Source: Elusimicrobiota bacterium (GTDB lineage: Bacteria > Elusimicrobiota > UBA8919). Taken from it: a stretch of DNA of 64,000 nucleotides. Location: the NCBI GenBank assembly GCA_016928195.1, contig JAFGLF010000044.1, positions 310,001 to 374,000 of the forward strand, given 5' to 3'. The number at the start of each line of letters is the position of its first letter. Position 1 is the stretch's first letter. This document shows positions 1,167 through 40,216 of the stretch, one piece after another. The position numbers and the translations under genes are program-made. The notes beneath the pieces are model-generated. The model worked only from the letters and a program-made list of their open reading frames with translations. It searched no databases and was not told where the DNA came from.

Positions 1167-2082
1167 TTGACTTAATACTGTTTATTGATATTTTCCCGTT
1201 AGCACTCTCTGCGGTATAAAATTTCGCAAAATTTTGCCAAAATTTAACCAAAAAATTTGGTAAGATTTAAAAAATATTTTTAATAGATATTTAACAAAAA
1301 AGGCAGGAAGGCAAACGGGCGGGTATCCCGTAATATTCGGCTAAAAGTTGGCAACATTTCGGATAATCCAAAAAGACTATGGAAGGCCCCTGGGTAAGAT
1401 TTTCCGGAAGTTGGCAACATTTAGGCAAATTTAGGCAAATTTTGATATCCCTCAAAAAAAGGCAGAAAACATAAAAGCTTCATAAAAAGCTACGCGGATG
1501 CCGAGGGTACCCAAATATCAACAAAACCCCCTACATAAGAAAAACACCATAAAAGAGAATAATCTGAAATATATAAAAAACCGGCAGGTTGGAAAAAAGG
1601 CAGGGAAAAAACATAAAAAGTTGGCAAAATAAAAAAAGAATTAGAAGACAAAAAAAGGCTGGAAGAAGGCAGGGTAAAAAGTTTAAAAAAGGCTGAAAGA
1701 AGTTAAAAAATAGGGTAAAGTATTGATTTCTCGACGGAAAATCGACAATAATTAACCTAAAATAAGGGAATTTTGGCCTAAAATCTGATTACAGCGATAT
1801 AAATAAGATTACAGTGATAGGTTTAATGTCTTTAATCTCCGTAATCATTTCGTTTATCACTGTTATCAGGCCTACCGGAATTGTGTAAAAGTTGGCAACA
1901 TTTTGAAAATTAGAATAATAAAAAAAGAAACCGGCCAAAATAAACAAAAAATTAAAAAAAAGGCGAAAAAGATAAAATAATCAGTAAAATTTGGCAGCTT
2001 TCCGACGAGAAACAAAGAGTTAACTCTTGATTACACCCGCCTCGACTCGCCTGCTCGTCGGGCGAGGCGGGCAGATTTTTTT
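1167..2082 (+). other. A-rich gene-poor region, possible noncoding transcript
   Basis: No protein-like reading frame is visible on either strand from 688 to 2190. The plus strand is strongly purine-rich from about 1270 to 2000 and repeats two words: AAAAAAGGCAGG-like (several times between 1300 and 1680) and AAAGTTGGCAACATTT-like (near 1345, 1408 and 1889, with a shorter form near 1618). A weak promoter-like pair (TTGACT at 1167, TATTTT at 1189, 16-nt spacer) and a terminator-like hairpin with a T-run (2036-2082) bracket the stretch on the plus strand. A transcribed RNA is therefore possible, but the region could equally be decayed sequence. A GATTACAGCGAT repeat block lies at 1785-1870. Confidence 0.3.
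2036..2082 (+). terminator. Terminator-like hairpin with T-run
   Basis: CCCGCCTCG (2036-2044) pairs with CGAGGCGGG (2063-2071), followed within five bases by seven T residues (2076-2082). The stem belongs to the GC-rich palindrome families scattered through the window, so a terminator role is plausible but not exclusive. Confidence 0.4.
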
Positions 2083-32927: not shown

Positions 32928-33168
32928 AAGCAGTTTGCTCACTTCCCTCTTCGCTTCATTTCATTTCGCTTCGGAGGGAGAGAGATTCGGTCACAAGTTG
33001 CTTCACTGACGTTCAGCACTCGCGACCCCGCCTCGCCGTCTTCGCCTGTCCGATGTTAATCGGACAACTCAGACATGGCTCCGGCTTTCGAATCTTCACG
33101 TGAGCAAAGCAGTTTGCTCACTTCCCTCTTCGCTTCATTTCATTTCGCTTCGGAGGGAGAGAGATTCG
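32928..33168 (-). mobile_element. tRNA-Ser-associated structured element, copy A
   Basis: A 62-nt direct repeat (32928-32989 and 33107-33168) contains the 3' part of tRNA-Ser (from CGAATC in the T-loop onward) plus its trailer. It flanks a 117-nt unique core. The core carries a 25-nt block (33023-33047) and a 29-nt block (33066-33094), both identical to copy B at 38877-39060. It also has a 7-bp hairpin (33048-33065), and a 9-bp hairpin (33100-33121) that runs into the second repeat. The layout matches an att-flanked island reduced to about 180 bp. No integrase or reading frame is present, so mobility is inference. Confidence 0.6.
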
Positions 33169-33241
33169 AACTCTCGATACCGCTTTTCAACGGTATAGCG
33201 GTTTAGCAAACCGCCGCCCTAGGCCACTAGGCGACCCCTCC
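33151..33241 (-). tRNA. tRNA-Ser (GCU)
   Basis: A 91-nt class II tRNA: acceptor GGAGGGG/TCCCTCC, anticodon stem GCGGT/ACCGC, loop TTGCTAA (anticodon GCT), long variable arm (ACCGTTGAAAAGCGGT) and T-arm GAGAG-TTCGAAT-CTCTC, with discriminator G. Its 3' 18 bases are duplicated at 32972-32989. Confidence 0.95.
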
Positions 33242-33316
33242 AAATAAAGGCAGAATTAAGAGTTAAGCGTTAATCCCGATGAATCGGGATCTCCGCTACG
33301 CTATGAGAATTAAGAA

Positions 33317-34011: not shown

Positions 34012-34254
34012 CTATCCTTCCAATTTTTTCTTAAGCCATTCTCTACCTACACCTTTTAAATATAATTCTCTTTTTCTGGCTTCTGTATAAGTATATACTT
34101 CCTCTATATATATTAACTTGACAGGTCTGCGACTCTTTGTAGTTTTAACTTTTCCATTATTATGTGCTTGAATCCTGCTTTTTATATCTCGTGTAGAACC
34201 AACATATAACTTATTATCAACACATCTTAGCACATATACAATGTATCTTTTCAT
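34012..34254 (-). CDS. GIY-YIG domain protein, UPF0213/SLX1-like
   Basis: This 80-residue protein starts at MKRYIVYVLRC (34254). The frame extends upstream through a broken tRNA and palindromes that are not part of the family. The GIY-YIG nuclease fold is visible as VYVLRC, LYVGSTRDIKSRIQAHN and a C-terminal EARKRELYLKGV helix with the usual acidic residue. The small stand-alone members of this family have no firm cellular role. No ribosome-binding site is seen before the ATG, and the preceding bases are repeat-derived. Confidence 0.85.
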   Translation of the reverse strand: MKRYIVYVLRCVDNKLYVGSTRDIKSRIQAHNNGKVKTTKSRRPVKLIYIEEVYTYTEARKRELYLKGVGREWLKKKLEG

Positions 34255-34269
34255 TTTTAAAGCGGTTTT

Positions 34270-34447
34270 TCCGCCACAGGCGGACCCGCCGAGGCGGGCA
34301 AGACCGGCGCAATCAACCACTCGGCCACGCCTCCACTTCGTTCCGTCTTTGTACAGGATGCGGTTGCCGGGGTGCTCACTGTCTCGCACCCATCGCTAAT
34401 CCCGTGCTCCTTGTTCGTCGCACAGCGATCCACTCGGCCACGCCTCC
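34270..34447 (-). pseudogene. Broken tRNA-Ser: duplicated 5' ends, 3' half replaced by palindromes
   Basis: At 34299-34334 the minus strand carries the 5' half of a tRNA-Ser through the anticodon triplet (ending CCGGTCTTG), matching 31 of 36 bases of tRNA-Ser UGA. The sequence then changes to CCCGCCTCGGCGGG and TCCGCCTGTGGCGGA hairpins (34270-34298) instead of the rest of the anticodon loop. The first 18 bases (GGAGGCGTGGCCGAGTGG) occur again at 34430-34447, separated by a 95-base hairpin-rich insert. No complete tRNA can be assembled. The intact promoter at 34482-34510 points at it. Confidence 0.65.
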
Positions 34448-34481
34448 CCGATGAATCGGGGCGGACACTACTCATTTTATT

Positions 34482-35439: not shown

Positions 35440-35459
35440 ATGCCAATCACCCCCAATTA

Positions 35460-35565
35460 AATGAAATTCAATTGAAACACATAGAAATACATTGAAACTC
35501 ATTGTAACAACTGTATTTCCACTGTATTTCTACCGTGTTTCCACTGTATTTCTATTTATTTCTGT
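35460..35565. repeat. GAAACACATAGAAATAC / GTATTTCTACCGTGTTTC inverted repeat
   Basis: TTGAAACACATAGAAATAC and TTGAAACTCATTG face TGTATTTCCAC, TGTATTTCTACCGTGTTTC and TGTATTTCTA. The same family precedes the SPFH gene at 36430-36535 and recurs near 47690-47725. Confidence 0.7.
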
Positions 35566-36419
35566 TTTATGTTTGAATCTCCGCCAACACCAATAAACGG
35601 GATTGCTCCTGCTCCGGTAACATCCGGTAATATCCCATTCCATTTTTCAATGGCTTTTAGGTTTGCCTCCACTTTTCTAAGTTCTATTAGGTCCCGTGAA
35701 ATATTGGTACGCTGAAGACGCAAGGACTCAGCTTCCGCTTTTGCTGCGGCAATTTTCTGCTGCGCCTCTATCTTTACTCTTTCCAAATCCCTCTGTGCCT
35801 TAAGGGCAAGCTGTTCCGCGGTCTGTTTTGATTCGATAGCTTCGGTAAAGATTTTGGAAAAACTGAAAGCAGCAATGGAAAAAGCGTCAACCGTTATATT
35901 GTATTCAAGGAGCCGCTCGGTAAGTGTTGCCTTCATTTCCTCGCTTACTGCCGGCCTTTTCGTTATAAGTTCTTCTGCTGTATACTTGGCTGACACAGCC
36001 TTTACTACCTCAAGTATTGCAGGGTCTATAATGCGCTCCTTATAAAATATACCTATACTTTGATAAACAATGTTCGATTTGTCAGGTATTATATGGTAGT
36101 TGAGCACAAGTGTTGAAGTTACATCCTGAAGGTCTTTAGAAGCAGCTACCGTATCGGTTTCCGCCTTCTGAACCTTAACATCCATCAAAACAACTTTCTG
36201 CATTATGGGAATTCTCAAATGCAGCCCTTCATCCAGAACTTTTTCCTGAACAGCACCAAAATTCATGACAACGCCTCTTTCTCCAGGTCCGACCTGTACC
36301 CATGGCTTTAAAAACAGCAAGGTTATAAGGATTATTCCTATAATTAAACCATTTGTCGGTATCTTTCTTACAGCTTCCTGCACTGACTCCTTCGCCCTGT
36401 CAACATCATTACTTTCCAT
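35556..36419 (-). CDS. Prohibitin/SPFH-family membrane protein
   Basis: This 287-residue protein starts at MESNDVDRAKE (36419), after GGAGG. The longer frame to 36500 lies in a repeat. One N-terminal helix (about 22-40, NGLIIGIILITLLFLKPWV) is followed by the SPFH domain (GPGERGVVMNFGAVQEKVLDEGLH, LRIPIMQKVVLMDVKVQ, VSTAKYTAEEL-like stretch) and a long coiled coil from about 190 (ESKQTAEQLALKAQRDLERV). It resembles prohibitins more than HflK/HflC. Such proteins form membrane rings that affect proteases. No FtsH gene is adjacent. Confidence 0.88.
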   Translation of the reverse strand: MESNDVDRAKESVQEAVRKIPTNGLIIGIILITLLFLKPWVQVGPGERGVVMNFGAVQEKVLDEGLHLRIPIMQKVVLMDVKVQKAETDTVAASKDLQDVTSTLVLNYHIIPDKSNIVYQSIGIFYKERIIDPAILEVVKAVSAKYTAEELITKRPAVSEEMKATLTERLLEYNITVDAFSIAAFSFSKIFTEAIESKQTAEQLALKAQRDLERVKIEAQQKIAAAKAEAESLRLQRTNISRDLIELRKVEANLKAIEKWNGILPDVTGAGAIPFIGVGGDSNIKQK

Positions 36420-36429
36420 TGTTATACCT

Positions 36430-36535
36430 CCATTAAAATGAAACTCAATTGAAACACATAGAAATACTCGCCACGGCGGGAAATACAATTGTATTTCCAC
36501 TATATTTCTATCGTATCTCTACTGTATTTCTATTG
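36430..36535. repeat. GAAACACATAGAAATAC-type inverted repeat in the SPFH leader
   Basis: CAATTGAAACACATAGAAATAC faces TGTATTTCCACTATATTTC and TGTATTTCTATTGTA, with a CGCCACGGCGGG hairpin at about 36471-36482. It lies between the promoter and the SPFH start codon. Confidence 0.65.
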
Positions 36536-36559
36536 TAACTTTTTTACTACTTTTGTCAA
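36532..36559 (-). promoter_or_regulatory. Promoter for the SPFH gene
   Basis: TTGACA (36554-36559), 16-base spacer and TACAAT (36532-36537) on the minus strand. The predicted leader of about 105 bases is largely the inverted repeat. Confidence 0.7.
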
Positions 36560-38876: not shown

Positions 38877-39060
38877 ATTGGGCAGGGAAGGATTCGGTCA
38901 CACATAAATATCCTGACGGATATTTTGTTCGACCCCGCCTCGCCGTCTTCGCCTCCCCGATATGTATCGGGGAACTCAGACATGGCTCCGGCTTTCGAAT
39001 CCTCACGCAAGCCAAGCAGTTGGCTTGCTCCCTTAAAACAATTGGGCAGGGAAGGATTCG
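38877..39060 (-). mobile_element. tRNA-Tyr-associated structured element, copy B
   Basis: A 20-nt direct repeat ATTGGGCAGGGAAGGATTCG (38877-38896 and 39041-39060) corresponds to the 3' end of tRNA-Tyr from the T-loop CGAATC onward plus three trailer bases. It flanks a 144-nt core. The core has an 8-bp perfect hairpin with TGAC loop (38906-38925), the 25-nt block (38930-38954), a 7-bp hairpin (38955-38972), the 29-nt block (38973-39001) and a 9-bp hairpin (39007-39028). Block sequences are identical to copy A while hairpin arms differ in compensating pairs. No protein is encoded. Confidence 0.6.
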
Positions 39061-39126
39061 AACCTTCGTAGGGCGCAGCCCGCCAGATTTACAGTCTGGT
39101 GCTTTTAGCCACTCAGCCACCTACCC
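39043..39126 (-). tRNA. tRNA-Tyr (GUA)
   Basis: An 84-nt class II tRNA: acceptor GGGTAGG/CCTGCCC, anticodon stem CCAGA/TCTGG, loop CTGTAAA (anticodon GTA), long variable arm GGGCTGCGCCC and T-arm GAAGGTTCGAATCCTTC, discriminator A. A consensus promoter lies directly upstream. Confidence 0.96.
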
Positions 39127-39135
39127 ATAAAAATC

Positions 39136-39164
39136 ATTTTACCAGTTTTTTATCTACTTGTCAA
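39136..39164 (-). promoter_or_regulatory. Consensus promoter for tRNA-Tyr
   Basis: TTGACA (39159-39164), 17-base spacer and TAAAAT (39136-39141) on the minus strand. The -35 box overlaps the last codons of the response regulator at 39161. Confidence 0.85.
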
Positions 39165-39679
39165 GAATCAACGAATATCATCCGCTGTTCATTCTGAATC
39201 TCAACCTGCTTACTTACATCTGCGACTTCTTTTTCCAGCAAAGCACGTTTTTCAGGGTCTTTTTCTTTATCCAACTCTTCTTTTTTCAGCTTCAATTCCA
39301 TTTTCCTCTTTCTCTTCAGGAAAATCAGTTCAATACAATCAACAAGTTTATTTATATCCACAGGTTTAACAATATATGCGGCAGGCCCGGTTGCTTCTGC
39401 TTTCTTTACCGAACCGGAATCCGAATATGCTGTTACATAGACAATAGGAATATCGCTTTTCTTTCTTATTTCCAAAGCTGCATCAATTCCTGTTTTACCG
39501 CCTTTAAGCATAATATCCATTAATATCAATTCCGGATTAAACTCTTCCGCCTTGCGTATGGCATCCTCTGCTGTCTCGGCAATTCCCATTATTATATAAC
39601 CCAAGTCGGATAATGATTCGCTTAAATCCTCTGCAACAATCGATTCATCCTCAACAATAAGAATTTTTGTTTTTTCCAT
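39161..39679 (-). CDS. Receiver-domain response regulator with C-terminal coiled coil
   Basis: This 172-residue protein has a CheY-type receiver in residues 1-120: acidic pocket VEDESIV, phosphoacceptor LILMDIMLKGG (Asp about 54), YVTAYSD and the lysine in YIVKPVD. The remaining 50 residues are highly charged and helical (KRKRKMELKLKKEELDKEKD). No DNA-binding domain is present. It is a close paralogue of the next gene upstream (39689), sharing the same tail, and both follow the multi-PAS kinase at 40232. Output is presumably by protein contact or by handing phosphate on in a relay. Confidence 0.9.
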   Translation of the reverse strand: MEKTKILIVEDESIVAEDLSESLSDLGYIIMGIAETAEDAIRKAEEFNPELILMDIMLKGGKTGIDAALEIRKKSDIPIVYVTAYSDSGSVKKAEATGPAAYIVKPVDINKLVDCIELIFLKRKRKMELKLKKEELDKEKDPEKRALLEKEVADVSKQVEIQNEQRMIFVDS

Positions 39680-39688
39680 AGCAGAAAA

Positions 39689-40216
39689 TTATTTAAAAAA
39701 TATCATGTTTTCTTTCTTCTGATTTTCGACCTGTTCTGATATTATCTTTATTTCCCTTTCCAATACACGGTGTTTTTCAGGATCCTTTTCCTTTTCCAAT
39801 TCTTTCTTTTTCTCTTCCAATCTCATTTCCTTCATTTTTCTCATAAGAGTCAGGCCTATACATGTTGCAAGTTCATCTTTATCAATAGGTTTAACAATAT
39901 ATGCAACAGGTCCGGTCTTTTCCGCTTTCTTTACTAAATCTATGGATGAATAGGCTGTTATATAAATAATAGCAATTTCTTTCTTCTTTTTTATTTCCTG
40001 TGCCACGTCTATCCCGGTTTTTGACCCGCCCAGCATAATATCCATTAATATTAAATCCGGGTTAAGTTTTTCTGCCTTTTGTATGGCATCCTCTGCTGTT
40101 GTAGAAATTCCTACTGTCTTATATCCTAACTCGGCAAGGGATTCACTTAAATCCTCAGCAATAATTGCCTCATCTTCAACAATCATAATTTTAACATACT
40201 CTCTTATATGTCCCAT
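39689..40216 (-). CDS. Receiver-domain response regulator, paralogue of 39161-39679
   Basis: This 175-residue protein has a receiver (IVEDEAIIAEDL, phosphoacceptor LILMDIMLGGS, YITAYSS, YIVKPIDK) and a charged helical tail (KMKEMRLEEKKKELEKEKD) aligned with that of the downstream gene. The start follows GGAG. It lies 15 bases after the HisKA_2-type kinase gene, its likely partner. No output domain is present. Confidence 0.9.
   Translation of the reverse strand: MGHIREYVKIMIVEDEAIIAEDLSESLAELGYKTVGISTTAEDAIQKAEKLNPDLILMDIMLGGSKTGIDVAQEIKKKKEIAIIYITAYSSIDLVKKAEKTGPVAYIVKPIDKDELATCIGLTLMRKMKEMRLEEKKKELEKEKDPEKHRVLEREIKIISEQVENQKKENMIFFK

Follow-up and report, generated by a model that had tools for sequence, protein, structure and literature searches.

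A family of structured non-coding elements at tRNA genes of Elusimicrobiota and Patescibacteria with arms fitted to the neighbouring tRNA

Organisation of the locus

A window of 64,000 nt (the whole stretch of DNA analysed; Elusimicrobiota bacterium, GCA_016928195.1, contig JAFGLF010000044.1, positions 310,001-374,000 of the forward strand) was found to contain two copies, A and B, of a small non-coding element that belongs to a real, large, and structured family without a description in any searchable source. Read on the minus strand, copy A lies 3' of tRNA-Ser(GCT) and copy B 3' of tRNA-Tyr(GTA), and the two share a 103-nt alignment with 85% identity (Table 1). On the tRNA-sense strand, the native tRNA (with its terminator, if any) is followed by an arm termed rcA, the hairpin HP1 (loop mostly CUGC), a second arm termed rcT, the stems P2 and P3 (loop of P3 GUCA), and GTGAC, after which the tRNA is repeated from C56 onwards. 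The core is ~135 nt long, and the entire unit ~150-200 bp.

A preliminary description of this DNA had reported identical blocks of 25 nt and 29 nt in both copies, a hairpin GTCCGAT/ATCGGAC that is CCCCGAT/ATCGGGG in the other copy, another that reads GTGAGCAAA-GCAG-TTTGCTCAC in one copy and GCAAGCCAA-GCAG-TTGGCTTGC in the other, and a TGAC-loop hairpin in both; all of these were present at the positions given for them. The GATTCG/CGAATC ends had been noted to coincide with tRNA T-loop sequence; they are not a fixed motif and vary with the T-loop, T-stem, and acceptor of the adjacent tRNA. The distal repeat of copy A extends beyond the tRNA and stops just past the HP1 loop (AACTGCTT). The same genome carries a third full copy behind tRNA-Arg(CCT) (L025) and a partial copy at a contig end (L001). 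In the tRNA-Arg copy (L025 1513-1657), a palindrome, CCGCCAGCTGGCGG, splits the rcT arm; it resembles short GC-rich palindromes elsewhere in this genome, e.g., at window positions 34276-34298.

Table 1 Features of copies A and B, in window coordinates
Feature	Position	Strand	Basis
Copy A core (part of HP1, rcT arm, P2, P3, GTGAC end) behind tRNA-Ser(GCT)	32990..33106	-	sequence; covariance model R1 match G000:C62:342983-343121, E 1.6e-29
HP1 of copy A, GTGAGCAAA-CTGC-TTTGCTCAC	33100..33121	-	sequence
rcT arm of copy A, complementary to tRNA-Ser T54-62 (AGATTCGAA)	33087..33095	-	sequence and arm/tRNA comparison
rcA arm of copy A (GAGGGAA), complementary to acceptor 3' strand CTCCCTC	33122..33128	-	sequence and arm/tRNA comparison
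P2 of copy A (GCCGGAGCC...GGCGAGGC, hairpin GTCCGAT/ATCGGAC)	33030..33086	-	structural alignment
P3 of copy A (GGTC...GTCA loop...GACC)	32990..33028	-	structural alignment
Distal direct repeat of copy A: tRNA-Ser C56 to 3' end, rcA, 5' half of HP1	32928..32989	-	62/62 identical to 33107-33168
tRNA-Ser(GCT), resident tRNA of copy A	33150..33242	-	tRNA prediction and Rfam scan
Copy B (rcA, HP1, rcT, P2, P3, GTGAC) behind tRNA-Tyr(GTA)	38897..39040	-	R1 match G000:C62:348890-349028, E 4.1e-31
HP1 of copy B, GCAAGCCAA-CTGC-TTGGCTTGC	39007..39028	-	sequence
rcT arm of copy B, complementary to tRNA-Tyr T54-62 (GGATTCGAA)	38994..39002	-	sequence and arm/tRNA comparison
rcA arm of copy B (AGGGA), complementary to tRNA-Tyr TCCCT	39029..39033	-	sequence and arm/tRNA comparison
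P2 of copy B (hairpin CCCCGAT/ATCGGGG)	38937..38993	-	structural alignment
P3 of copy B (GTCA loop)	38897..38934	-	structural alignment
Distal direct repeat of copy B, CGAATCCTTCCCTGCCCAAT, tRNA-Tyr C56 to 3' end	38877..38896	-	20/20 identical to 39041-39060
tRNA-Tyr(GTA), resident tRNA of copy B	39042..39127	-	tRNA prediction and Rfam scan

Conserved fold

When 19 hand-picked copies were aligned without a model, 87.7% of the cells formed pairs, and 37 of 51 pairs were changed on both sides, with a covariation score of 0.471 (0.156 for shuffled and at most 0.131 for slid alignments). For 104 distinct copies, aligned by fitting to a covariance model, each of the 44 modelled pairs was changed on both sides (score 0.582 vs at most 0.096 slid). 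Pairing was far above chance in both sets, in support of the earlier reading that the compensatory stem changes point to selection on a folded molecule. Invariant positions were located mostly in loops and internal loops, i.e., the HP1 loop (CTGC; CGAT in Endomicrobium-like genomes), GGA/GA and GAGTTT/AAAGGCGA in P2, and GTCA in P3.

Two conserved U-G pairs of P2 (columns 85-149 and 86-148, tRNA-sense strand) alternate with U-A and C-G, which points to the tRNA-sense strand acting as RNA. A wobble asymmetry of 282 vs 42 was obtained at first, yet it shrank to ~2:1 (G-T vs A-C) once restricted to Watson-Crick columns and is therefore weaker evidence on strand and molecule than it had initially seemed. 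The molecule is probably RNA, with single-stranded DNA as the alternative. One copy behind tRNA-Asn (L036, ~1370-1547, minus strand) has an HP1 with a nested insert of ~120 nt that bears hairpins of its own.

Size and distribution of the family

Using blastn, the element was detected in 18 of 60 relatives with up to 12 copies per genome. A covariance-model search, as proposed in the preliminary description, was performed with a model built from the 19 copies (R1) and returned many further copies beside different tRNA genes with more compensatory pairs: 139 of 341 Elusimicrobiota genomes carried the element, and since only ~9 candidates per genome were scored, the copy counts of this screen are lower bounds. 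Individual genomes of the phylum differ, having 0 to 12 or more copies and, in different species, different tRNAs as neighbours. An exact pattern searched against all GTDB contigs yielded 50 loci, which belonged to Elusimicrobiota or Patescibacteria besides metagenome-assembled genomes named only "bacterium". In a loose screen of Patescibacteria, 49 of 380 sampled genomes contained the element, the highest copy number of a single genome being 24 (G363).

The element was not found in PLSDB (plasmids) and INPHARED (phages), and one exact pattern gave no match in IMG/VR. Rfam returned only tRNA matches at gathering score and, even up to an E-value of 1, no convincing match to the core (lax scan, five loci), and no description was found in the open-access literature, so that the earlier suggestion of an undescribed mobile or RNA family stands. 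A family carried by a large proportion of Elusimicrobiota and a noticeable fraction of Patescibacteria seems to have escaped annotation.

Location at tRNA genes and fit of the arms

Location was tallied for 176 copies in 79 genomes. A tRNA gene on the same strand was located upstream of 166 copies and within 120 nt of 139, with 18 amino-acid types represented; the chance expectation is well under 1% (rough estimate, ~45 tRNA genes per 1.4 Mb). The ten exceptions include copies at contig ends or behind an intron-bearing tRNA. In the genome G030 and its relatives, copies behind tRNA-Ser isoacceptors also have a similar spacer. G030 has six copies, and congeners of it carry none. No tRNA gene was found near three well-preserved copies (L019, L034, L104); their tRNA has either disappeared or changed place, unless the element is able to live elsewhere. 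Upstream of two further copies (L084, L094), the tRNA is seemingly split in the anticodon region by a group I-like intron (GATATAGTCC motif) and was missed by ARAGORN.

Both arms flanking HP1 show complementarity to the 3' half of the tRNA next to them, which is strong for positions 54-64 and weaker for 66-73. The segment matched by the rcT arm usually runs from 54 to a position between 62 and 65, most commonly 64, and the rcA arm pairs less well with the acceptor strand. The arm fit was 1290 for the copies' own tRNAs vs 836 (standard deviation 19) for permuted ones, the best of 5000 permutations reaching 904. All four central T-loop bases were matched exactly in 90 of 136 arms (20.3 when permuted), and by T-loop centre the expected arm sequence was found in 40/45 (CGAA-TTCG), 20/21 (CAAA-TTTG), 10/12 (CAAG-CTTG), and 4/4 (CAAT-ATTG) cases. 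At tRNAs with a CGAG T-loop, 17 copies have the arm centre CGAG instead of CTCG, a variant never observed beside other T-loops and adjoining Asn, Gln, and Leu tRNAs, among others; with these tandem-GA equivalents included, 107 of 136 arms match the T-loop variant. C-GA-G opposite C-GA-G can form tandem sheared G.A pairs, and the 17 cases therefore argue for real pairing and against mere copying. That the arms physically pair with the tRNA is well supported. The rcT arm also outlasts the distal repeat, as 41 copies keep only the arm and 16 only the repeat (p 0.001).

Junctions, empty sites, and spread

In 40 copies, the distal repeat stops at or close to the 3' terminus of the tRNA (inside it or no more than 4 nt beyond). 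Its end lies in the spacer or past the native terminator in 22 copies and at HP1 in 13, and in 63 the repeat is decayed or short. At the tRNA-Tyr locus of one genus, relatives were found with one or two units, with remnants broken inside HP1 (G123, G048, G091, G023), or with clean empty sites (G074, G113, G107, G118, G099). The clean sites carry a terminator, which is therefore native there, and the element proper begins at rcA.

Cores with 95-97% identity adjoin different tRNAs and have unrelated flanks and different arms, both within a genome (Leu and Thr copies of G035, 97% identical) and between genomes (G048 Ser vs G025 Asn/Gln, 96-97% identical). The element, or at least its core, therefore spreads, and spread in one of these two forms is well supported. 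Where cores are nearly identical, HP1 and the two arms vary jointly, as a single block, so that gene conversion in which resident elements exchange their cores is a serious alternative to transposition of the whole unit. Copies from different genomes that lie beside the same tRNA resemble each other slightly more than copies do on average (mean 0.632 vs 0.577), so that residence and loss are mixed with movement.

Other features of the window

At 34012-34275 (minus strand) and 34299-34342, a small GIY-YIG nuclease gene has on one side a duplicated tRNA-Ser 5' half, truncated behind CTTG of the anticodon loop, and on the other an intact tRNA-Ser(TGA). This arrangement looks like a separate tRNA-gene invader that would target the anticodon loop. 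Next to it (34343-34460), a second tRNA-Ser 5' fragment (GGAGGCGTGGCCGAGTGG, 34430-34447), a hairpin-rich insert of ~90 nt, and the next 5' fragment follow, possibly representing another structured element that duplicates tRNA 5' ends. Related AT-rich blocks of 11-nt repeats (TGTATTTCTAC-like) with inverted parts (35449-35567 and 36426-36545) flank a gene that, read from its sequence, looks like an HflC/prohibitin-type gene. Two tandem response-regulator-like genes (39161-39679 and 39689-40216), ~72-75% identical over long stretches, adjoin a large multi-PAS histidine-kinase-like gene.

Possible mechanism and alternatives

The interpretation we tentatively prefer is a small non-coding, non-autonomous mobile element that is specialised in tRNA genes and probably acts as tRNA-sense RNA with its arms as guide. 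More doubtful, albeit possible, is that it represents a new class of RNA-guided mobile element, whose bipartite arms pair with the 3' half of the tRNA or its gene and direct insertion between U55 and C56, the guide being refitted for each target. On the preferred reading, the folded strand would act as RNA read in the direction of the tRNA, rcA-HP1-rcT would pair as a bipartite guide with the 3' half of the tRNA or tRNA gene, and the P2/P3 core may be a protein-binding scaffold recognised by a putative trans-acting enzyme. This enzyme would open the tRNA gene between U55 and C56 and further downstream, leaving the tRNA intact and the new copy followed by a repeated tRNA 3' end, while the arms would be fitted to the new tRNA by copying during insertion or by selection afterwards.

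Several observations weigh against the preferred reading. HP1 is 98% Watson-Crick paired with 1.0% wobble G-T (5.4% in the tRNA stems of the same loci), a scarcity that would suit single-stranded DNA or templated palindromes. A terminator-like hairpin separates tRNA and element in 76 of 105 Elusimicrobiota copies, so that co-transcription of the two is not assured. Many copies keep to one tRNA in different species, a pattern that residence combined with gene conversion would account for as well. None of the candidate enzymes tracks the element, and reverse transcriptase, Y1, small GIY-YIG, and IS110 enzymes are each lacking in most element-rich genomes: RVT_1 reverse transcriptases were present in 65 of 336 genomes and missing from many copy-rich ones (G000, G005, G019, G021, G023), no Y1 transposase was found in ten multi-copy genomes (G017, G019, G021, G023, G025, G035, G037, G048, G054, G058), and no small GIY-YIG protein in seven (G017, G025, G035, G037, G041, G043, G048), whose single GIY-YIG match lies in a long frame (~450 aa) read as UvrC. 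The IS110 DEDD transposase occurred in 6 of 60 genomes and, among element carriers, only in G012 and G051 (one copy each), whereas tyrosine recombinases (XerC/D-like) were encoded by every genome in numbers alike for element-rich and element-free ones. No copy with coding cargo was met, nor was a coding relative (an autonomous transposon sharing its ends) in the loci read, with no systematic search made for the latter. As no tested protein explains the distribution, we infer the mechanism.

Unlikely in our judgement, the element could be a host-useful tRNA-linked RNA, with arms that bind precursor or mature tRNA and influence its processing, abundance, or a stress response, the copies being old residents that exchange only their cores. 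The many copies that occupy one tRNA, within conserved synteny, in several species (tRNA-Tyr locus), the more faithful retention of the rcT arm than of the distal repeat, and the physical pairing indicated by the tandem-GA replacement agree with this, but the incomplete occurrence in the phylum with copy numbers and tRNAs differing by species, the clean, unoccupied sites of close relatives, the occurrence of tandem duplicates and of remnants in decay, and the position of most Elusimicrobiota copies behind a terminator-like hairpin do not. The fit could also be a by-product of quasi-palindrome correction without any guide, in which an inserted core forms an imperfect inverted repeat with the tRNA and template switching copies the tRNA into the arms. 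Template switching can create and keep perfect hairpins (PMC8794818) and homogenises inverted-repeat arms (PMC8604942). The almost exclusive Watson-Crick pairing of HP1 with few intermediates despite wide sequence variation, and the variation of HP1 and both arms as one block, would be in line with such a process, which we nevertheless regard as improbable: templating cannot make the 17 CGAG-opposite-CGAG arm centres restricted to one T-loop, and it leaves the tRNA location and the repeat starting at C56 unexplained.

Still somewhat less probable are minimal cassettes that depend on a tyrosine recombinase for movement, with the T-loop and 3' half of the tRNA gene serving as attachment site. 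tRNA 3' halves are classic integrase sites, tyrosine recombinases are ubiquitous in these genomes, and the C56-starting repeat with its 40 ends in or just beyond the tRNA would be accounted for; however, the element has no integrase gene, recombinase numbers do not follow it, and attachment-site recombination neither refits an inverted, hairpin-interrupted tRNA copy nor explains conserved RNA-like loops. Very improbable is a retroelement with a tRNA primer, whose rcA and rcT would form a bipartite primer-binding site renewed from the tRNA in each cycle, as in long terminal repeat retroviruses. Retroviral primer-binding sites use the tRNA 3' end, roughly the part covered by the arms, and renewal would explain the fit, but the site is interrupted by a hairpin, no coding element was found, and reverse transcriptase domains are missing from many multi-copy genomes (G000, G005, G019, G021, G023). 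Two further candidates were rejected: a self-splicing tRNA intron, as nothing is missing from the proximal tRNA and the distal half has often decayed, and a degenerate tandem tRNA gene, as the arms are the reverse complement of the 3' half and not a 5' acceptor plus 5' T-stem.

If the element is mobile, as preferred here, it represents a new way for a very small non-coding element to find its targets and refit to them; if it is host-functional, it is a new tRNA-linked RNA. Under either reading, it becomes possible to test how an element of 135 nt that encodes no protein keeps track of its target.

Comparison with known systems

The element shares with tRNA-integrated genomic islands, integrative mobilizable elements, and satellites (tyrosine recombinase) the location at the tRNA 3' half, the intact tRNA, and the direct repeat of the tRNA 3' end, which was found at the far junction; its tRNA 3' copies can thereby mimic attachment sites in annotation. 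Unlike those islands, it is ~150-200 bp long and gene-free, has a covarying fold and arms complementary to the resident tRNA, and occupies many tRNA types per genome. Like IS110/IS1111 bridge RNA and TnpB/IscB guide RNAs, it would be a structured non-coding RNA with target-matching sequence, including a bipartite guide around a stem, but the IS110 transposase is absent from element-rich genomes, only tRNA 3' ends were seen as target, and no protein is encoded. Repetitive extragenic palindromic (REP) sequences, bacterial interspersed mosaic elements, and miniature inverted-repeat transposable elements are likewise short, dispersed, palindromic, non-coding, and multicopy; they differ from the strictly tRNA-located element with its target-fitted arms and three-way-junction core, and nearly all element-rich Elusimicrobiaceae have no Y1 transposase of the REP type (IS200/IS605).

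Group I introns of bacterial tRNA genes would be comparable as structured RNAs in tRNA genes with internal guide sequences, yet the boundary of the element lies in the T-loop and not the anticodon loop, and the tRNA is complete without splicing. No Rfam group I match was obtained at gathering score or in the lax scan (five loci). With the retroviral primer-binding site, the element has in common the complementarity to the 3' end of the tRNA and its dependence on the tRNA used; it differs in being interrupted by a hairpin, in adjoining the tRNA gene itself, and in needing no reverse transcriptase in the genome. The arms fitted to the neighbouring tRNA are the defining trait of the family and occur in none of the families compared.
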